A stretch of 64,000 bases of DNA, taken from positions 1 through 64,000 of the forward strand of contig CACKSH010000008.1 of the NCBI GenBank assembly GCA_902602765.1. The letters are read 5' to 3'. Positions 53,363 to 64,000 of the stretch are shown piece after piece. Both the position numbers and the translations under genes were made by a program. Below the pieces are notes generated by a model, which saw only the letters and a list, made by a program, of their open reading frames with translations, searched no databases and was not told the DNA's origin. This DNA comes from Paracoccaceae bacterium. Its GTDB lineage: Bacteria > Pseudomonadota > Alphaproteobacteria > Rhodobacterales > Rhodobacteraceae. Every line of letters starts with the position of its first letter. Positions within the stretch are counted from its first letter, which is position 1.

Positions 53363-53653
53363 ATGTCACGCCGCTGTGAATTGACTGGTAAAGGCCCCAT
53401 GACAGGCAACAACGTAAGTCATGCCAATAATAAAACAAAGCGCAGGTTTTTACCGAATCTGAACGATGTCACTTTACAGTCGGAAGCTTTGGGACGTGGT
53501 TTCAAGATGCGTATTACGGCAGCAGCTCTTCGGAGTGTTGATCATCGAGGGGGACTGGATGCTTTCCTTCTCAAGGCAAAAGACTCTGAGTTATCTGACA
53601 ATGCTTTGAAAATTAAGAAGGAAGTTGTCAAAAGCCAAGCGGCTGAAGCTTAA
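53363..53653 (+). CDS. rpmB: 50S ribosomal protein L28
   Basis: This 96-residue ribosomal protein begins [31 protein letters not shown] (in part), the unmistakable L28 front, and ends with [20 protein letters not shown], the longer alphaproteobacterial form. AAGGAATTTG precedes the ATG. About 195 noncoding bases upstream contain a TATAAT hexamer at 53226-53231 as the likeliest -10. A copper-chaperone gene follows within about ten bases. Confidence 0.97.
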
Positions 53654-53663
53654 CCTAAATCCT

Positions 53664-54209
53664 ATGGTCTTAGACTACTGTAAAAGAGTTCGCTACTTTT
53701 ACAAAAAATTGATCTTTTTCTTTATAGTATTGCTTACTCCTTTGGTGGCGATTGCAGAGACAATATCGGTTGATGACGCCTATGTGCGTGTTTCTACGAA
53801 ATTTGCAAAATCTGCAGCGGCTTTTATGGAAATAAGGAATAGATCTTCACGGGACGACCGCTTACTCGATGTAAAATCAGATGAAGCCAAAAAGGTTGAA
53901 TTACATACTCACATTGAGGGTGATGACGGTGTGATGAAAATGCGCCGCGTAGAAGATGGGTTTGTTATTTCGGGCAATGGAGTTCTCAAGCTTGAAAGAG
54001 GTGGTGACCATATTATGTTCATGGGGCTATCTCAGCCCTTTGTTGATGGAGAGGTAATATTTTTGACTCTAATATTTGAAACTGCTGGATCAATTGATTT
54101 AGAGATCCCGATTCATTTAAAGAAAAGATCAGCTTCAAGATCACACTCACATACCCACACACACAAGAAGTCTAAGACCCACAAGCACACGCATACGCAC
54201 TCAGATTGA
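53664..54209 (+). CDS. PCuAC-type copper chaperone with His-rich tail
   Basis: PCuAC proteins are periplasmic copper(I) carriers that supply cytochrome oxidase and other cuproenzymes. An N-terminal signal (KLIFFFIVLLTPLVAIA before ETISVDDAYVR) exports the protein. The copper motif is seen as ELHTHIEGDDGVMKMRRVE with the later GDHIMFMGL, supplying the His and Met ligands. The last 22 residues contain eight histidines alternating with Ser/Thr and Lys, an added metal-binding tail. The longest open frame starts with TTG inside rpmB. I prefer the ATG ten bases after the rpmB stop (181 residues), which puts the signal peptide near the front. Confidence 0.87.
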   Translation: MVLDYCKRVRYFYKKLIFFFIVLLTPLVAIAETISVDDAYVRVSTKFAKSAAAFMEIRNRSSRDDRLLDVKSDEAKKVELHTHIEGDDGVMKMRRVEDGFVISGNGVLKLERGGDHIMFMGLSQPFVDGEVIFLTLIFETAGSIDLEIPIHLKKRSASRSHSHTHTHKKSKTHKHTHTHSD

Positions 54210-56535: not shown

Positions 56536-56877
56536 TCCGAAACGCCCAACCTTTTAAATTATTCTCTAGAACTTATGGAATAGTTTTCTTGCTAATAATA
56601 TTGAAATTGTAAAATCACTTTGTGTCTTTCTAAATCTTCCGTAAGACGCTAAGAGTTGTTATAGCTTATAAAACATTATTTTTATCAATTTTTTACCAGT
56701 AATCAAAAGGTAACGCTTAACGAAAATTCCATTGAGTCACCAGTGATGTCCAGAAAGCAGCAGTTGCTTATTAAGAGCGAATTAATATTCGCTCTTAAAT
56801 ATTTAAAATCAAAAACCTATCATATTAACGCTACAGAATAATAATCTTTGTTAGCGACCTGCAGTTTTACGGGGGTC
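56536..56877. other. gene-free region with a 12-bp stem hairpin
   Basis: No ORF with a ribosome site is found in this 342-base AT-rich stretch between the divergently read rhomboid start and the pseudoazurin stop. At 56771-56798 TTAAGAGCGAAT and ATTCGCTCTTAA form a perfect 12-bp stem with a 4-base loop. It lies about 80 bases beyond the pseudoazurin stop, but no T-run follows on either strand, so it is a poor classical terminator and may instead stabilise the transcript end. Confidence 0.45.
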
Positions 56878-57372
56878 TTAAGCTGTAAAACCCTCAGCGT
56901 CTGCCTTTTCCCACAAAGCTTTCCAGGCCTTCTTGGCTTTTCCTCTGTGTTTGACAGATTTGGCTTCCTCAAGATTATCGAGCATCCCGTCACCTTCGAC
57001 GACGATAAGACCAATCATACCCATATTTGCGTGAGGCGTACATTGATAACCGTAAAAACCTGGCGTATCAAACACTACGTCAACTTGTTTATTGATCTTA
57101 CCCTTCCACTTTTCTGCACCAGCGGGCAACATCCCTTTGATGATTGCGCTATTATGCCCTTTATCGGTTGGTATAAAACTTACTTCATCGCCTACCTGCA
57201 CTTTCAATAAACTCGGTGAGAAAATCATCTTGTTTTTTGAGTTGTCGGGGTCCTTATTAAGCATTAGGATTTCATATTTGGTAGATCCCATTGCAGTTTT
57301 TGATATAAGTAACGAGCCTGTCAATGCCGCGGATGCTGCGATAAATTCTCTTTTTGACATTTTTTTGAACAT
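56878..57372 (-). CDS. pseudoazurin (type 1 blue copper protein)
   Basis: Pseudoazurins are periplasmic one-electron carriers, known donors to copper nitrite reductase, nitrous oxide reductase and other enzymes. The four copper ligands are visible: His in DKGHNSAI, then Cys and His in GYQCTPHANMGMIG and Met in the same loop. The N-terminal leader MSKREFIAASAALTGSLLIS has a Tat-like S-K-R-E-F-I, with Lys in place of the first Arg. The C-terminal 40 residues are the helical pseudoazurin tail. The ATG behind GGAGA gives 164 residues; longer frames run through a promoter-like region. No denitrification gene is nearby. Confidence 0.92.
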   Translation of the reverse strand: MFKKMSKREFIAASAALTGSLLISKTAMGSTKYEILMLNKDPDNSKNKMIFSPSLLKVQVGDEVSFIPTDKGHNSAIIKGMLPAGAEKWKGKINKQVDVVFDTPGFYGYQCTPHANMGMIGLIVVEGDGMLDNLEEAKSVKHRGKAKKAWKALWEKADAEGFTA

Positions 57373-57781
57373 ATATTTCTCCATTACAAAGTTTTGGCCC
57401 ACCAAAGTTAAACATATTTGGGCCATTTTACACTCAATCAGCTTACTAAAGGCACTGGCATGTATGAAATTATACTAAATTGCCAGCCTTGTCTTAATGT
57501 ACAATAAAGCACCCTTTGAGTGGATTTCAATAGTCCACGTTGCATATATTTTTGCGAATTAAATTGCAATTGACAAAATTAGTCACAAGCGACATCCTCA
57601 AATCGCTCTTTAATGCCGAGACCAACATACCTATGAGACTTTGCTAGCCATCTTTTAAGAACGTGCGCCGCTATGTCCTAATTAGAAAAGCCAGCCAGTC
57701 GTCTTATGGATATTTGTATCTTGGTAATAATAATTATATGAGATATAGTGGGATAGTTTGTTGTTTAATACTCAAAAGTTA
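57373..57781. other. intergenic region between pseudoazurin and puhC
   Basis: About 400 bases lie between divergent genes, and no further coding sequence is recognised. I searched it for TGT-N12-ACA (PpsR/CrtJ) and TTGAT-N4-ATCAA (Fnr) sites and found neither. TGTCTTAATGTACA at 57491-57504 is a shorter TGT-N8-ACA dyad of unknown meaning. Confidence 0.4.
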
Positions 57782-58201
57782 ATGAAGTCGTTCAAGCCTC
57801 AATGGCTTGTTCCAGCTGCGATGTTGGCATCGATTATATTTGTAATTGGCTTTCAGGTTTTAAATTTTAAGCCAATAAACGTCTCTCAAAATAGCAAAAT
57901 TATATCAAGTAAACTGATTTACATTGAGCAAAGTGATGATTTAGCGACAAAAATTTCAAACGAAAAACGTGATATCTTAGTCGAGTATCCGAAAGGCGAG
58001 CAATCATTTGTTTCTACCGTTTTGACTGTCATAAATAGAGACCGACTTAAAAGAAACTTAGATACAACTGGCCCTGTAATACTACAACAAAAAGAGAATG
58101 GCCGTTTAAGTATTTTTGACCCATCATCCAAAAAAGAATTAGATTTGATGGGCTTTGGCGAAGATAATATCTTAGTATTTCGTGACATATTGGAAGATTA
58201 G
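57782..58201 (+). CDS. puhC: photosynthetic complex assembly protein PuhC
   Basis: PuhC is a single-span inner-membrane protein needed for full assembly of the reaction centre and light-harvesting 1 complex. The product has an N-terminal membrane segment (WLVPAAMLASIIFVIGFQVL) and a periplasmic body whose end, GRLSIFDPSSKKELDLMGFGEDNILVF, matches the PuhC pattern 'G-R-L-x-L-x-D-P-x-T-x-R-x-I-x-L-x-A-F-G'. An in-frame TTG eight codons upstream is possible. In relatives puhC follows puhA and puhB; here it stands alone directly before pufL. The identification is by pattern and context and is good but not certain. Confidence 0.8.
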   Translation: MKSFKPQWLVPAAMLASIIFVIGFQVLNFKPINVSQNSKIISSKLIYIEQSDDLATKISNEKRDILVEYPKGEQSFVSTVLTVINRDRLKRNLDTTGPVILQQKENGRLSIFDPSSKKELDLMGFGEDNILVFRDILED

Positions 58202-58219
58202 TGTAAATATAACCTTACA
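58202..58219. promoter_or_regulatory. PpsR/CrtJ-type box 1 (TGT-N12-ACA)
   Basis: GTGTAA-N8-TTACAC encloses an exact TGT-N12-ACA with extended symmetry, beginning one base after the puhC stop. PpsR/CrtJ represses photosynthesis genes in air and strong light in Rhodobacter and relatives. A second box follows after three bases. Confidence 0.7.
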
Positions 58220-58222
58220 CAC

Positions 58223-58240
58223 TGTAAATTTTAATTGACA
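58223..58240. promoter_or_regulatory. PpsR/CrtJ-type box 2 overlapping the pufL -35
   Basis: A second exact TGT-N12-ACA lies 21 bases centre-to-centre from the first, two helical turns away. Its right half is also the TTGACA -35 of the likely pufL promoter (TTGACA at 58235-58240, -10 TATCCT at 58257-58262). Bound repressor would therefore block polymerase directly. Confidence 0.7.
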
Positions 58241-58262
58241 TATTTATTTCTTTTTTTATCCT
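58235..58262 (+). promoter_or_regulatory. putative promoter of the pufLMX operon
   Basis: TTGACA, a 16-base spacer and TATCCT form a reasonable housekeeping promoter about 110 bases before pufL. It overlaps the second PpsR-type box, which supports it as the regulated start. Transcription may also continue from puhC. Confidence 0.45.
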
Positions 58263-58283
58263 CAGAGCAGAAGGAATCTACCT

Positions 58284-58394
58284 GTGATTCACGTGCTTTC
58301 AGTTGAAAATTCAATGGAAGCTCAAACAAGGATGTTGGTAAGACAGGTATACCTACGGAAGAGAAGGATTATTTATGGCTCTTTTATCTTTTGA
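58284..58394 (+). CDS. possible 36-aa leader peptide overlapping the pufL start
   Basis: A GTG eight bases after AAGGA opens a 36-codon frame, [10 protein letters not shown] at its front, that runs 20 bases into pufL in another frame. It occupies the place where pufA would normally end but has no resemblance to LH1 alpha or beta peptides, no membrane helix and no His ligand. It may be chance or a leader that couples translation to pufL. Confidence 0.25.
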
Positions 58395-59223
58395 AAAAAA
58401 ATATCGAGTTCGCGGCGGTACCTTAGTAGGAGGTGACCTTTGTGATTTTTGGGTTGGCCCGTTTTATGTGGGCTTCTGGGGGCTTTCGGTTGCCTTTTTC
58501 GCTGTACTTGGAACAATTCTAATATTTTATGGTGCTGCTATTGGTGATACGTGGAACCCATGGCTTATTTCAATTGAACCACCTGAACTCGAAGTTGGTC
58601 TGGGCTTTGCACCCTTAAAAGAAGGTGGGCTCTGGCAATTAATTACAATCTGTGCCCACGGTGCATTTATTTCATGGGCGCTGCGGGAGGTTGAAATTTC
58701 AAGAAAGCTTGGGATGGGTTTACATGTACCAGTCGCCTTTGCATTTGCAATTTTGGCTTACACAACGCTTGTTGTAATTCGCCCTGTATTAATGGGTGCG
58801 TGGGGTCACGGCTTTCCATATGGAATTTGGTCACATCTTGATTGGGTCAATAACGTTGGTTATGCCTATGGTAATTTTCACTATAATCCTGCTCATATGA
58901 TTGCCGTAAGTCTATTCTTTACAACGACACTAGCATTGGCGCTGCACGGCTCGCTTATTCTTTCAGCAGCCAATCCAGAAAAAGGAAATGAAATGCGCTC
59001 ACCGGATCATGAAGATACCTTTTTTCGTGATTTTATAGGCTATTCAATTGGGCCTCTGGGCATTCATCGTCTTGGACTGCTTCTTGCACTTAATGCAGGA
59101 CTATGGTCTGCGATTTGTATCGTGATCTCTGGAACGGTTTGGTTCGATGTTTGGTCTGAATGGTGGTTTTGGTATGTGGATCTCCCTATGTGGGTAGATA
59201 TTGAGGGAGGCGTCAATGGTTGA
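58375..59223 (+). CDS. pufL: photosynthetic reaction centre L subunit
   Basis: PufL is one of the two core proteins of the type II reaction centre, carrying bacteriochlorophylls, bacteriopheophytin and QA/QB-side cofactors in the inner membrane. The 282-residue length equals that of Rhodobacter PufL. The front [20 protein letters not shown] is typical. The accessory and special-pair His residues are in [12 protein letters not shown], and the iron ligands in LALHGSLIL and LGIHRLGLL. All appear intact, so the protein should be functional. GAGAAGGA precedes the ATG. There are no pufB or pufA genes before it, unlike in other Rhodobacterales. Confidence 0.97.
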
Positions 59224-60139
59224 GTATCAGAATATTTTTACACAGGTGCAGGTTCAAGGACCCCCAGAAATGGGAGTTGAAGAGGGTGTGCCTCTCAATG
59301 ACAGAACAAATTCAGCTCGATTTTCGAGATTGTTAGGTTGGTTTGGTAATGCTCAACTTGGTCCAATCTATCTTGGTTCATTTGGAGTGGTTGGTCTTGC
59401 TACAGGATTGATTTGGTTTGTAATGGTTGGCGCAAGTTATTGGGCCCAAGCTGATTACAATCCAGCGATATTCCTACGCGATTTATTTTACTTCTCTTTG
59501 GAGCCACCTGCCGAAGAATACGGATTGAGTATGCCTCCCATGAAGGAGGGTGGTTTGTGGCTAATCGCTAGTTTCTTTCTACTTGTTTCAGTACTTTCAT
59601 GGTGGCTGAGATCTTACGAACTAGCAAGGCAGCTTAAAATGGGTAAGCATGTATTTTACGCTTTTGGTGCTGCAATATGGCTTTTCCTGGTTCTTGGTTT
59701 AATTCGGCCAGTCCTGATGGGCAGTTGGTCAGAGGCTGTCCCATACGGGATTTTTAGTCACCTTGATTGGACGATGAATTTTTCCGTAGTTTACGGTAAT
59801 CTTTTTTATAATCCATTTCATGCGTTGAGCATAGTTTTCCTTTATGGCTCAGTACTATTGTTTGCAATGCATGGAGCAACTATTTTAGCGGTATCTAGAT
59901 TCGGTGGCGATAGAGAAATAGAGCAAATTGCCGATCGTGGTACAGCATCTGAGCGCGCTGCTTTGTTCTGGCGATGGACGATGGGCTTTAATGCCTCGAT
60001 GGAGGGTATACATCGGTGGGCTTGGTGGTTTGCAGTCCTAACTACAATTACTGGAGGCATCGGAATACTCCTTACCGGAACTGTGGTAGATAATTGGTAC
60101 TACTGGGCGCAGCTGCATGGCTATGCTCCAATGGATTGA
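59216..60139 (+). CDS. pufM: photosynthetic reaction centre M subunit
   Basis: PufM pairs with PufL to hold the special pair, quinones and iron. The 307-residue protein begins [20 protein letters not shown], and its His ligands are seen in [28 protein letters not shown] and [12 protein letters not shown]. The iron-binding Glu lies in [19 protein letters not shown]. The open frame extends five codons upstream, but the ATG overlapping the pufL stop by eight bases, behind GGGAGG, is the family start. No cytochrome pufC follows. Confidence 0.97.
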
Positions 60140-60149
60140 GGTGATCAAA

Positions 60150-60365
60150 ATGGATAGTAGAAATACGAAAGAGTCTTGGGACAGGGAAATGTCAATTGCT
60201 CAAATTTTTGGGCAAATGTTTTCAGGATCATTAATCGCCGGGGCTTTAGTTGGAGTACCAGTGGTATTTATAGTTGCGCTCATGTGGTTGGGTGAATTTC
60301 TCCCTGCGGAATCTAAACTAGCAGATGACCCGACGCCGGATTCATTTGTATCGAGTAAAGACTAA
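60150..60365 (+). CDS. PufX-like single-span protein
   Basis: The 71-residue product follows pufM by ten bases, behind a good GAGGTG ribosome site. It has a charged N-terminus, one membrane segment at about residues 25-47 (GSLIAGALVGVPVVFIVALMW, G31-x3-G35) and a short tail GEFLPAESKLADDP. Size, topology, Gly-rich helix and position all resemble Rhodobacter PufX, which opens the LH1 ring for quinone passage and dimerises the core complex. Direct identity to PufX is low by eye, so the name rests on context. It could also be a protein-Y or -U-like core component or an unrelated subunit. Confidence 0.55.
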   Translation: MDSRNTKESWDREMSIAQIFGQMFSGSLIAGALVGVPVVFIVALMWLGEFLPAESKLADDPTPDSFVSSKD

Positions 60366-60405
60366 AAATATTACTGTCTCAAGCTCGTAGTCGATTAAGA
60401 AAGTA

Positions 60406-60438
60406 AAAACTGCAGCTGTTTTCGCTGCAGTTTTTTAT
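60406..60438 (+). terminator. intrinsic terminator after pufLMX
   Basis: AAAACTGCAGC and GCTGCAGTTTT form an 11-bp stem around TGTTTTC, with six Ts in the arm and tail. It starts about 40 bases after the PufX-like stop and closes the puf transcript. Confidence 0.9.
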
Positions 60439-60691
60439 TGATATCTTAATGTTATACTTGGCGTGTTATCATTTCATCAGAAACTAGACTATAATTTTTG
60501 ATATAATTATTGTTATTAATTTGGTAATCAGCTCACTTTTTGAATTAGAAGACTCTATTGACGCTAAAGGTAGATAAAACTAGTTTTGACGTCGCAACCG
60601 ATTGATAAGCGTAGTGACTACCTCCCTGTTATCACGGCGTTTCTAGGCGGCCTTGGTTATATAAATTTTATAAAAGTGATATAGGAAAATT
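60439..60691. other. promoter region of the LysR regulator
   Basis: No ORF or RNA is recognised in the space between the puf terminator and the LysR gene. It presumably holds the regulator's promoter. LysR-type T-N11-A sites are too short to call here. Confidence 0.35.
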
Positions 60692-61570
60692 ATGTCTGAA
60701 CTTCGAGATTTACAAATGTTGGTGTCGTTGTCTAGGACAAGAAATTTTTCACGGTCCGCAACGGACTGTAATATTTCACAACCTGCTTTTTCGACGCGAA
60801 TTAGAAAATTGGAGGAGCGTCTCAATCTACCTTTGGTACGCCGCGGTAATAGCTTTCAGGGGTTTACTAAAGAAGGTGAAGTAGTGCTGAAGTGGGCCCG
60901 AAAGCTTTTAACTGATGAGGAAGGTATGAGGCAAGAGATCGCTGCTCTTAAAAACGATCTAAACGGCACATTGTCGCTTGGAGTAATACCTACAGCAATG
61001 CCGTTTGCTGCACGCGTCTCAGCAAAACTTCGAGAAAAGCATCCTAACCTGTCTATAGAGATCTATTCTGAGTCCACTCACCAAATCGTACTCAAGCTAA
61101 ATGATTTTTCACTAGACGCAGGAATACTTTACTTCGATAATGGAGATCCAGAGACAACAGTAAAACTTTACGAAGAAAGATATGTCTTTATTGCGCCCAA
61201 GTCACTTACGGTTTCTAAAGAGAAGCAAATTACATGGGCAGAAGTCGCACAAATTCCTCTATGTCTATTGACTCAAAATATGAAAAATCGCCAGCTAATA
61301 GATCGGCACTTCTTAGAGTTAGAAATTTCCCCGAGTATTGTCACTGAAGCCAGTGATTTTACCGCTGTTTTGGCTCAGGTTGCCGCTGGTAATGCTGCTA
61401 CAATTGCACCTGTCAGCGTGGCGGAGACATTTCTAGATTTAAAATCCACAAAACAATTAGATTTGATCCGTCCTATTTTGACCCATTCAGTTGGTCTTTC
61501 CATTAAAGATCAATCCCCAGTGCTTCCGATGATTCAAGCCCTTCGTAAGGCGGTAAAGTCGGCATTATAA
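60692..61570 (+). CDS. LysR family transcriptional regulator next to formate dehydrogenase genes
   Basis: This 292-residue regulator has an N-terminal winged helix-turn-helix (LRDLQMLVSLSRTRNFSRSATDCNISQPAFSTRIRKLEERL, in pieces) and a substrate-binding domain from about residue 92 (GTLSLGVIPTAMPFAARVSAKLREKHPNL, in pieces). The fds genes follow on the same strand 87 bases on. LysR regulators beside fds operons are usual in this group, so control of formate oxidation is the likely role. The ligand is unknown. AGGAAAATT precedes the ATG. Confidence 0.9.
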   Translation: MSELRDLQMLVSLSRTRNFSRSATDCNISQPAFSTRIRKLEERLNLPLVRRGNSFQGFTKEGEVVLKWARKLLTDEEGMRQEIAALKNDLNGTLSLGVIPTAMPFAARVSAKLREKHPNLSIEIYSESTHQIVLKLNDFSLDAGILYFDNGDPETTVKLYEERYVFIAPKSLTVSKEKQITWAEVAQIPLCLLTQNMKNRQLIDRHFLELEISPSIVTEASDFTAVLAQVAAGNAATIAPVSVAETFLDLKSTKQLDLIRPILTHSVGLSIKDQSPVLPMIQALRKAVKSAL

Positions 61571-61657
61571 TCATTTCAAATCGCACCTTTGATTATTTGT
61601 ATTGGAATTTATTAAAATTGTTTGTATTTTTTCCAAGTATACAATCGTAGGCCAAAC

Positions 61658-63340
61658 ATGGGAAAAATTGAATCAGGGATATGGAAGTCTGCTAAGGGCA
61701 AAGGGCGGGCTCACACAAAAGGCAGACCCATAGACGACGTCGCTTGGGCTCAGGTAAGAGACCTTCTTAAAGGTAAACGGCGCGACCATGATATGTTGAT
61801 TGAGCACTTGCATTTAATACAGGATAAATTTCGGTGTATAAGCGCAGCTCATATGCGAGCTTTGGCGGAAGAGATGAGAATGTCATCTGCGGAAGTGTAT
61901 GAAGTAGCATCTTTTTATGCTCATTTTGATATTGTAAAAGATGGTCAGCTACCTCCCCCAAAATTAACAATTCGCGTTTGTGATAGTTTGTCTTGTATGA
62001 TAGCTGGAGCTGACACACTGAAAAAGAATTTAGAAGATGGCTTAGATCCCTCTGAGGTGCGGGTTTTACGTGCCCCGTGTATGGGCCGTTGCGATACTGC
62101 TCCCGCACTTGAGATAGGGCACGCTCACATCGACAATGCTACCTTTGAAAAGGTGATGGAAGCAATTGAAATTAATCATGTGCACCCAATAATCCCGGAA
62201 TATGAGAGATTTTCAGAGTATGTCTCCTCTGGTGGATACGAAACTTTAAAATCATTGCGTAAATCAGGTGACTGGAAAGAAGTGCAGACTGAAATCTTGG
62301 ATGCTGGCCTTCGTGGGCTTGGCGGTGCAGGGTTCCCTTCAGGAAAGAAATGGGAATTTGTTAGAGCAAACGAGGGCCCAAGATATCTTGCCGTTAATGG
62401 CGATGAGGGCGAGCCGGGTACGTTCAAGGATAGATATTATCTCGAACGCACCCCACACCTGTTTCTTGAAGGGATGTTGATCGCAGCTTGGGCTGTTGAG
62501 GCCGAGAAAGCATATATTTACATGCGGGATGAGTATCCATCCGTTCTAAAGATATTAAAAGATGAAATTATAAAGTTAGAAAATGCAGGTATTGTTGACG
62601 AAGGTTATATTGACCTTCGCCGCGGCGCTGGTGCCTACATTTGTGGCGAAGAGAGCGCGATGATAGAGAGTATAGAGGGGAAACGTGGTATTCCGCGACA
62701 TCGACCGCCATTTGTTGCGCAGGTTGGAATATTTGGCAGACCCACGCTCGTGCACAATGTCGAAACGCTGCATTGGATAGCGAGAATTTGCCGAGAGGGT
62801 GGCGAGATATTTTCTGGAACGATAAAAAATGGTAGAGTTGGCCTTCGCAGTTATTCAGTTTCAGGTAGAGTAAAAAACCCTGGTGTGCATCTTCTACCTT
62901 CTGGATCTACTATCTTAGATATTATTGATGCCGCAGGTGGTATGTTAGATGGTCATACTTTCAAAGCGTATCAGCCTGGGGGTCCGTCGTCTGGTCTTTT
63001 GCCTGCATCAATTAATGACATTCCAATGGATTTTGATACATTGCAATCTCTTGATACATTCATTGGATCTGCTGCCGTAGTTATTTTATCCCAAGTAGAT
63101 AAGCCTCGGGATGCCGCATTAAATATGCTTAGGTTTTTTGAAGATGAAAGCTGTGGGCAGTGTACGCCATGCAGAGTAGGGTGTGAAAAAGCAGTTAAAT
63201 TGCTTGAGCAGCCAAAGTGGGATGCAGAGCTACTAACGGACATTTGTACTGCAATGGGAGACGCTTCAATTTGTGGGTTAGGCCAAGCTGCTTCAAACCC
63301 TATAAAGCTGACATTACGGCATTTCCCGGATGAGGTATAA
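61658..63340 (+). CDS. NAD-dependent formate dehydrogenase, fused gamma-beta subunit (FdsG-FdsB)
   Basis: This 560-residue protein is two electron-transfer subunits in one chain. Residues 20-165 are NuoE/FdsG-like, with a [2Fe-2S] site in CDSLSCM and CMGRCDTAP. The rest is NuoF/FdsB-like: NADH-binding GLGGAGFPSGKKWEF, FMN-binding NGDEGEPGTFKDR, GAGAYICGEESAMIESIEG and a [4Fe-4S] site in ESCGQCTPCRVGCEKA with ASICGLGQAA. It passes electrons from the molybdenum/tungsten alpha subunit to NAD+. The ATG start (MGKIESGIW) is preferred over an upstream TTG. The alpha-subunit gene follows after three bases. Separate gamma and beta genes are found in Cupriavidus and Rhodobacter capsulatus. Confidence 0.93.
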   Translation: MGKIESGIWKSAKGKGRAHTKGRPIDDVAWAQVRDLLKGKRRDHDMLIEHLHLIQDKFRCISAAHMRALAEEMRMSSAEVYEVASFYAHFDIVKDGQLPPPKLTIRVCDSLSCMIAGADTLKKNLEDGLDPSEVRVLRAPCMGRCDTAPALEIGHAHIDNATFEKVMEAIEINHVHPIIPEYERFSEYVSSGGYETLKSLRKSGDWKEVQTEILDAGLRGLGGAGFPSGKKWEFVRANEGPRYLAVNGDEGEPGTFKDRYYLERTPHLFLEGMLIAAWAVEAEKAYIYMRDEYPSVLKILKDEIIKLENAGIVDEGYIDLRRGAGAYICGEESAMIESIEGKRGIPRHRPPFVAQVGIFGRPTLVHNVETLHWIARICREGGEIFSGTIKNGRVGLRSYSVSGRVKNPGVHLLPSGSTILDIIDAAGGMLDGHTFKAYQPGGPSSGLLPASINDIPMDFDTLQSLDTFIGSAAVVILSQVDKPRDAALNMLRFFEDESCGQCTPCRVGCEKAVKLLEQPKWDAELLTDICTAMGDASICGLGQAASNPIKLTLRHFPDEV

Positions 63341-63343
63341 CCA

Positions 63344-64000
63344 ATGAGTGAAAAGATCGAATTTGTACTTGATGGTGAGACTGTATATGCCGAAAAAGGT
63401 CTATCAATTTGGGAAGTTGCAAATGGACAAGGCCTGAAAATACCGCATTTATGCCACAAGCCCAAGCCAGGATATCGGCCGGATGGAAACTGTAGGGCGT
63501 GCATGGTTGAAATAGAGGGCGAAAGGACACTAGCCGCTTCATGTATAAGAGAGCCACAACCCGGAATGGTGGTCAATTCTGCGACCCAGCGCGCTGAAGC
63601 CGCTAGAAAAATGGTGATCGAAATGCTTGTCACCGACCAGCCTCAAAGAGAAGTAGCGCATGATAAATCTAGCCATTTCTGGGATATGGTTGAATTAAAC
63701 GATGTTCATGAAAGTAGATTGCCAAGGCTAGAGCAGGATTGCGTTCCAATTTTGGATGACTCTCATGTCGCAATGTCTGTAAGTCTCGATGCATGCATTC
63801 AATGCGGATTGTGTGTGCGCGCTTGCCGAGAAGTTCAAGTAAATGATGTAATTGGAATGTCAGGGCGTGGTCACAACTCTTACCCAACATTTGATATGGC
63901 AGATCCTATGGGTTCTTCAACATGTGTTGGCTGTGGAGAGTGCGTTCAGGCCTGTCCTACAGGTGCCTTGATGCCGTCTTCTGTTGTTGATGCGGGGCAA
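63344..64000 (+). CDS. formate dehydrogenase alpha subunit (FdsA), 5' part only
   Basis: The frame is open to the window edge (219 codons seen; homologues have about 920), so only the iron-sulfur N-terminus is visible. It has a ferredoxin-like [2Fe-2S] domain, HLCHKPKPGYRPDGNCRACMVE and SCIREPQPG, followed by two [4Fe-4S] motifs, CIQCGLCVRACREVQ and CVGCGECVQACPTGAL. This order is that of FdsA/NuoG-type formate dehydrogenases, whose later part binds the molybdopterin cofactor and oxidises formate. It starts three bases after the fused gamma-beta gene. Accessory genes fdhD and fdsD are expected beyond the edge. Confidence 0.93.
   Translation, partial: MSEKIEFVLDGETVYAEKGLSIWEVANGQGLKIPHLCHKPKPGYRPDGNCRACMVEIEGERTLAASCIREPQPGMVVNSATQRAEAARKMVIEMLVTDQPQREVAHDKSSHFWDMVELNDVHESRLPRLEQDCVPILDDSHVAMSVSLDACIQCGLCVRACREVQVNDVIGMSGRGHNSYPTFDMADPMGSSTCVGCGECVQACPTGALMPSSVVDAGQ

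Follow-up and report, generated by a model that had tools for sequence, protein, structure and literature searches.

The window analysed here is a stretch of 64,000 nucleotides (contig CACKSH010000008.1, positions 1 to 64,000) from the draft genome of a Paracoccaceae bacterium (GCA_902602765.1). It carries a block of photosynthetic reaction-centre (RC) genes in the order puhC-pufL-pufM-pufX (57782-60365), as read from open reading frames (ORFs) and family profiles. The light-harvesting complex 1 (LH1) genes pufB and pufA are absent from this block. In purple bacteria, LH1 and RC genes usually form one operon, and their proteins form one complex. The source genome, G000, comprises 1.85 Mb on 49 contigs and is 82% complete; the window belongs to its contig C8. 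Outside the RC block, this contig holds mostly housekeeping-type genes, as read by eye.

Reaction-centre genes of the window

PufL of the window matches solved RC L chains from end to end, and PufM matches solved RC M chains (family scores in Table 1). PufX showed a weak match to the solved PufX chain 7ddq_X (E 0.049) and had no hit among the NCBIfam models. The characteristic role of PufX proteins is to open the LH1 ring so that quinones can be exchanged. The residues H153, H168, H173, H190 and H230 are present in the L subunit, and H182, H202, H219, E234 and H266 in the M subunit (M numbering shifted by one). We take these residues to be the pigment (bacteriochlorophyll) and iron ligands. 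A PF00124 search of the whole genome detected one pufL and one pufM, both in the window, and PF02276 (PufC) had no match in G000. No RC operon besides that of the window was found in G000.

An earlier note on this DNA had described pufL as lacking pufBA upstream and as preceded by puhC and a gap of 173 bases. This arrangement was borne out, the gap spanning 58202-58374. The terminator which the note placed right after the PufX-like gene is visible as a hairpin followed by T's at about 60409-60440; the palindrome there is on the scanner list for the minus strand only. The cofactor ligands said to be kept are present at the expected L and M positions. The judgement that decay of the RC is unlikely is supported for the RC genes of the window, which have intact ligands and are the only pufL and pufM of the genome.

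LH1 genes in the canonical gene cluster

A PF00556 search over G000 identified two light-harvesting complex genes, pufB and pufA, both on contig C16 and neither in the stretch, where the earlier note had counted an overlooked pufBA among the possible refutations. Both genes are intact and score above the cut-offs of the family and of the LH1-specific beta and alpha models. The order on C16 is crtI, crtE, crtF, bchC, bchX, bchY, bchZ, pufQ, pufB, pufA, dxs, with the crt, bch and dxs genes named by eye and by matches in relatives, and pufQ by PF05398. No pufLM directly follows pufBA in G000; after pufA, a stub of pufL is followed by dxs. The same note had left two options, LH1 genes elsewhere in the genome or an RC without a standard antenna. 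The first option stood, while the intact pufB and pufA on C16 speak against the second. A movement of the LH1 genes, as part of the first option, did not hold, as the canonical superoperon slot between pufQ and dxs still contains pufBA. The antenna genes thus remain in their canonical position, and the RC genes are the displaced set.

Distribution among relatives

The genus was sampled with 16 genomes, 53 to 96% complete. Nine of them carry the puhC-pufLMX block, termed cassette below (G000, G001, G003, G004, G008, G010, G011, G013, G014). The canonical pufBALM-pufC operon is present in two, G007 (96% complete) and G012 (95%). No RC gene was found in the other five genomes. These include G002 and G015, in which pufQBA runs straight into dxs, and G006, whose contig breaks off inside pufA. 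PufL and PufM of the other cassettes in clade A, to which G000 belongs, are 96 to 98% identical to those of G000. In G004 of clade B, pufL lies in two frames (L067, 7162-8008), caused by a frameshift or a sequencing error.

The antenna proteins are shared by carriers of either RC type. Between G000 and G012, PufB and PufA are 98% identical, while PufL reaches 76% and PufM 74%. The identities of PufB and PufA are 96 and 98% for G007 and G001, and 86 and 98% for G007 and G004. An RC built without an LH1 antenna, as the lack of any LH1 gene near pufL might indicate, is extremely improbable in view of this conservation and of the intact pufB and pufA, with their leader gene pufQ, on C16.

Two genomes of other genera also contain the block. 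G026 carries puhC-pufQ-pufLMX away from its pufQBA-dxs locus. G232 carries puhC-pufLMX without pufBA, its LH1 locus lying outside the comparison. In the named set (one genome per species), six PufM loci (L085-L090) among the best 80 of at least 597 stretches have the block. Of the remaining 74, 68 have pufBA upstream and 6 start at or inside pufL. L085-L090 were taken as G003, G013, G008, G014, G001 and G026 again and were not recounted. In a family survey of 394 genomes from 393 genera, a PufM threshold of E 1e-175 was passed by G000, G026, G232 and G380 only; the arrangement in G380 is canonical.

That a block without pufBA recurs in eight further genomes of the genus, and outside it in two more genera, argues against an assembly error, which the earlier note had named as a possible refutation. 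A chance join of puhC to pufL during assembly is very unlikely. A wider artefact, by which C8 and C16 would derive from different organisms, gains some plausibility from the draft state of G000 and from a likely contaminant contig of such kind in G011. The latter genome holds two blocks, one of which (L071, contig C76) is flanked by clade A sequence although the genome belongs to clade B. PufLM of L071 is about 100% identical to that of G013, and contig C76 is probably a contaminant. For G000, a mixture is hardly credible. Housekeeping genes of C8 (GlnD, IMPase) fall into a group with G003, as do the Bch genes of C16. The contamination estimate is 0.86%, and the same split occurs in G001 on contigs of 104 and 135 kb and in G003 on contigs of 32 and 110 kb.

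Deletion scar in the canonical slot

The gap between pufA and dxs, stop codon excluded, comprises 341 bases in G000 and 340 bases in G003. Its 5' part consists of a hairpin after pufA (-23.8 kcal/mol, z -4.35 in G000), a string resembling a ribosome site and the first bases of pufL. The best local scores of this 5' piece were obtained with the canonical pufL of G012 (40 for G000 and 45 for G003; maxima of 100 shuffles 26 and 29), followed by the pufL of G007 (35 and 39). The cassette pufL of the window did not fit (22 and 19). The 3' part of the gap corresponds to the sequence after pufC in G012, with scores of 258 and 255 versus at most 32 for shuffles. By the coordinates of G012, the missing stretch is about 2.9 kb long and comprises pufL, pufM and pufC. 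A similar string, GCGnnAATCT, was noticed by eye at both break points.

In clade B (G001, G002, G004, G011, G015), the gap is about 150 bases long. The break seems to be located elsewhere, near GCATTG at pufL codons 2-3, with weaker support; the 3' side of the gap in G011 gave no alignment with G007 (score 16). As the breaks of the clade A type and of clade B seem to differ, the genus has probably lost its canonical RC genes on at least two occasions. The hairpin after pufA has been folded for G000, G001, G015, G026 and the canonical G012, and is kept at loci where pufLM is gone (L003, 10068-10408; L077, 9340-9494). For this reason, it may now form the 3' end of the pufQBA mRNA.

Trees and base composition

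The PufLM tree unites the cassettes of the genus in one clade (support 100/99). Together with G026, G232, L091 and G380 they form a group inside the PufX type (100/100), L091 being a canonical PufX-type operon. A single origin of all cassettes is weakly backed (82/75 in one PufLM tree, 47/72 in another). The canonical RCs of G007 and G012 fall with the PufC-type RCs in the PufLM trees, and forcing all RCs of the genus into one group was rejected by the approximately unbiased (AU) test (p 2.7e-7). For genes of the photosynthesis gene cluster (PGC), the BchXYZ tree places the genus beside L091, a PufX-type cluster (99/99), and the PufQBA tree gives the same position (100/97). The dxs tree revealed no sister relation of the genus to L091. 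AU tests spoke against a grouping of the Bch genes of the genus with PufC-type clusters (p 0.0013 and 0.00996), for groups chosen after an earlier tree. A first reading, with pufLMX as the foreign and pufLMC as the native set, was weakened by the BchXYZ and PufQBA trees and by the AU tests. Given the position beside L091, it may well be that the cluster was first paired with the cassette RC and that pufLMC is a later guest.

These trees also lend some support to a relocation, in which the lineage's own canonical pufLM moved to its present site with the RC type unchanged. The BchXYZ and PufQBA trees set the genus beside a canonical PufX-type operon whose PufLM is near the cassettes, and the PGC may have had the cassette RC as its partner from the beginning. 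This alternative is rather unlikely, given that the scar matches a former PufC-type operon in the canonical slot, that two other genera carry the block at other sites, and that the cassette PuhC stands apart from the PuhC of the PGC. In the PuhC tree, the cassette copies (12 rows) and the PGC copies are split by a branch with a support of 92/92; these proteins are short and fast-evolving.

Base composition puts no foreign mark on pufLMX. The G+C content at third codon positions is 33-37% in pufL, pufM and pufX, versus 30-36% in five housekeeping genes. Carriage by phages was considered and not supported, as a method limited to close relatives detected none of PufM or PuhC among viral contigs. 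A recent plasmid origin was rejected as well. PufM occurred on 11 of 72,556 plasmid records, all at 60-80% identity, with 77.6% as the best value listed.

Control region before pufL

Between puhC and pufL, two PpsR-type boxes are located, the second of which overlaps a sigma-70-like promoter found by consensus scan only (Table 1). TGT-N12-ACA has been described as the PpsR site, and the boxes of Rubrivivax promoters are spaced by 8-9 bases, according to the covered parts of that work (PMC4452267). Over the whole window the motif is not enriched (10 found, 14.3 expected), so that a single match means little. Sigma-70-like sites are common in the A+T-rich 3.9 kb (17 found, 9.8 expected). Exactly two boxes precede pufL (in G026, pufQ) in 12 of 12 cassettes from three genera, at an expectation of 0.04-0.075 per shuffled stretch; the expectations for cassette stretches were derived from single-base shuffles.

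All controls were performed on loci L091-L164. Upstream of bchC, the positive control, at least one box was found in 55 of 55 loci and a pair in 53. Canonical pufL leaders contained at least one box in 6 of 69 loci and a pair in one, and the 500 bases before pufB contained none in 68 loci. No box was found between pufA and pufL in G012 or between pufA and dxs in G000; one box precedes bchC of G000. The pattern suggests that pufLMX forms a PpsR-controlled transcript of its own. With a box before bchC of G000 as well, the RC and LH1 halves could be regulated in parallel.

The conserved boxes bear also on the possibility that the island around the block is a passive insertion whose RC is not used. 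Nothing beyond the odd place of the genes favours it. The RC of the window has intact ligands, no other RC was found in G000, and PufL and PufM are highly similar among the clade A cassettes (identities given above), which makes disuse very improbable.

PuhC copies

G000 possesses a second puhC in the PGC (C16:1023-1430), and a PGC copy is also present in G007. It was not found in G001, a cassette genome in which TIGR03054 detects the cassette copy only, nor in G015, which has an empty canonical slot and no RC gene found, and in which TIGR03054 detects none. Between puhA and the gene after it there are 1542 bases in G001 and 1539 in G015, about 400 fewer than the 1938 in G007. The distribution of the puhC copies suggests, but does not prove, that the PufX-type RC is served by the cassette PuhC. 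The puh part of the PGC is located downstream of pufBA in clade B (G001, G007, G015); that of clade A (G000, G003, G012) lies upstream.

Pseudoazurin

A gene for pseudoazurin, a blue copper protein, is transcribed divergently from puhC and adjoins the block in all 10 block copies of the genus. TIGR02375 exceeds its cut-off in 10 of the 16 genomes, namely in the nine cassette genomes, beside the block, and in G009, at a contig edge. It has no match in the PufC-type genomes G007 and G012. G006, without RC gene found, contains a diverged pseudoazurin relative below the cut-off. Next to the blocks of G026 and G232, no pseudoazurin was found. PufC is a tetraheme electron donor bound to the RC, which makes a copper protein attractive as a substitute donor. 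The contrast between pseudoazurin and PufC amounts to only two cases, one per clade. Speculatively, and from gene content, pseudoazurin might supply the RC with electrons where the tetraheme cytochrome is absent. Pseudoazurin as donor to a purple-bacterial RC was not met in the part of the matches covered in the literature on RC electron donors.

Island and neighbouring genes

The block is part of an island of about 9.65 kb (C8 ~56558-66206) with the gene order pazu-puhC-pufLMX-lysR-fdhB-fdhA. The homology of C8 to G012 ends near 56557 and returns near 66207. At the empty site of G006 and G012, a rhomboid-like gene directly adjoins a gene resembling an ABC-transporter binding protein (both named by eye); in G000, the island lies between these two genes. 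Part of clade A may have gained the island, or G006 and G012 may have lost it, the branching order at the base of clade A being uncertain. No mobile-element genes were recognised among the identified genes of the island; no search was aimed at them. In clade B (G001, G004), the block and pazu are located between FAD-oxidoreductase-like and DoxX-like genes, as read by eye. In G232 (L296, 7813-15856), the block stands beside a branched-chain type ABC transporter that resembles the one bordering the G000 island on its right, but at the opposite end of this transporter, as read by eye.

The island also encodes a LysR regulator and a formate-dehydrogenase-type enzyme, named by eye with its domains tested. 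The beta subunit of the latter is 73-74% identical to the copy of G006 and G012 at another site, versus 89% for GlnD, and G000 has no other match to it. The enzyme is a second gene exchange in the same block. A PCu(A)C copper chaperone gene and the pseudoazurin gene are separated by about 2.7 kb. The chaperone has a relative with 63-64% identity in G006 and G012, which places the gene outside the island.

Table 1. Features in and around the reaction-centre block of the window (positions of the window; C8 positions where marked)
Feature	Position	Strand	Evidence
PCu(A)C copper chaperone, His-rich tail	53625-54209		PF04314
Island, pazu-puhC-pufLMX-lysR-fdhB-fdhA	56558..64000 in window		
Pseudoazurin (blue copper protein), divergent from puhC	56878..57426, start uncertain	-	TIGR02375 134.8 vs 109.85 bits; PF00127 65 bits
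puhC, divergent cassette copy	57782..58201	+	TIGR03054 83.4 bits vs cut-off 55
PpsR-type box 1, TGTAAATATAACCTTACA	58202..58219	+	TGTN12ACA
PpsR-type box 2, TGTAAATTTTAATTGACA	58223..58240	+	TGTN12ACA
Sigma-70-like promoter, TTGACA-N16-TATCCT	58235..58262	+	consensus scan only
pufL, RC L subunit	58375..59223	+	TIGR01157 427 vs 266 bits
pufM, RC M subunit	59216..60139	+	TIGR01115 517 vs 364 bits
pufX, gene right after pufM	60150..60365, start uncertain, ORF from 60117	+	PF11511 29 vs 25 bits
Terminator-like hairpin and T run, 3' of pufX	60409..60440	+	read from sequence
LysR regulator, in island	60692..61570	+	PF03466, PF00126
NAD-linked formate-dehydrogenase-type beta subunit, in island	61658..63340	+	PF01512, PF01257
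Formate-dehydrogenase-type alpha subunit	63344, past window end, to C8:66124		ORF table

Interpretation

The preceding results are best explained by a self-contained PufX-type RC operon outside the PGC, which very probably serves the LH1 antenna left in the PGC after loss of a PufC-type RC. PpsR would repress the pufLMX and pufQBA transcripts in parallel. Through this common repression, RC and LH1 would still be made together, though no longer from one mRNA. The cassette PuhC would act as assembly partner of the window's RC. The resulting complex would be LH1-RC-PufX, its LH1 subunits and PuhA coming from PGC genes. Less certain, though likely, is an earlier stage at which the genus had both RC types, before different lineages lost one or the other.

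Several observations weigh against this explanation. No puhA was detected in G000, where contig C16 starts about 1 kb ahead of puhC, and a further LH1 or RC copy could be missing from the 82% complete assembly. The 12 box pairs represent four lineages (clade A, clade B, G026, G232) and not 12 independent cases. In the genus, the two boxes of a pair stand 3 or 5 bases apart, compared with 8-9 bases in Rubrivivax. The clade A cassette genomes G000, G003 and G013 keep both PuhC copies, so that a partner specificity of the cassette PuhC is not established in clade A. The 5' piece of the scar is short, with 35-65 bases aligned, and reaches scores near or slightly above the shuffles with the cassette pufL of G001 (29 and 28) and G026 (30 and 34). 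The assignment of the scar to the PufC type consequently rests mainly on its 3' side.

A broader proposal, put forward tentatively and itself doubtful, regards the block as a portable RC module of marine Rhodobacteraceae. It would bring its own PuhC, its own PpsR promoter, pufLMX and, in one genus, a blue copper donor, and would replace a PufC-type RC encoded in the PGC while LH1 stays unchanged. In this genus, the swap would exchange four RC-bound haems for a soluble copper protein. If true, the exchange of haem for copper could help such cells to save iron in the open ocean.

Clade A seems to present a natural swap, in which LH1 proteins of 98% identity are found with either of two RC types of about 75% identity, and both the scar and the empty site are readable. 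The swap opens direct tests of the assembly specificity of RC and LH1, of the role of PuhC, and of the matching of RC and LH1 from two promoters. The usual marker gene pufM can, on its own, mislead about the remaining photosynthesis genes.

Comparison with known systems

Chloroflexus has pufLM separate from pufBAC. The likeness is limited to RC and LH1 genes being apart, but phylum, RC type and history are different. Novel RC organisations were reportedly described by Yutin and Beja in 2005 (cited in PMC6052148 and PMC3176799), and something similar may be among them. In the titles and abstract starts covered in the literature on puf operons, no description of the split arrangement of puhC-pufLMX and pufQBA was met.

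The canonical operon of Rhodobacteraceae consists of pufQBALM, then pufX or pufC, and then dxs. In the covered parts of this account, pufX occupies precisely that place in 22 of 22 strains lacking pufC, and one single replacement of pufC by pufX is described (Brinkmann et al., 2018, PMC6052148). G000 shares with this operon the same L, M and X genes and the same order crtEF-bchCXYZ-pufQBA-dxs around LH1. It differs in that pufLMX does not follow pufQBA and in that the canonical slot seems once to have held pufLMC.

Citromicrobium sp. JL354 contains an incomplete PGC, pufLMC-puhCBA, in an integrating conjugative element beside a complete PGC (PMC3338782, parts of the paper covered). As in G000, its RC genes lack pufBA, have a puh gene attached and are located away from the PGC. 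The Citromicrobium set is an extra one with puhABC and pufC, according to the same parts. The block of G000 is in contrast the only RC set found, with puhC alone, pufX and PpsR-type boxes, and the canonical RC is deleted.

Seven genomes of the COR cluster harbour both pufLMX and pufLMC (PMC12661815, 2025, legend of Fig. 3). The likeness to this cluster, as far as the covered parts of the paper describe it, lies in its pelagic Rhodobacteraceae with small genomes, and the genomes with both operons fit a stage with two RCs. Gene place, loss scars, LH1 location, PuhC, boxes and pseudoazurin are not described in those parts. The G+C content of the window (40.7%) fits COR, as does the genome size; the clade B loci (37-40%) range between COR and LUX. 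On these values, the genus may or may not belong to the COR cluster. The alternation of PufX and PufC, clusters with RC genes only and the presence of two RC types in some COR genomes are already known, and the split arrangement of a puhC-pufLMX block and a pufQBA locus seems to add a further variation to them.

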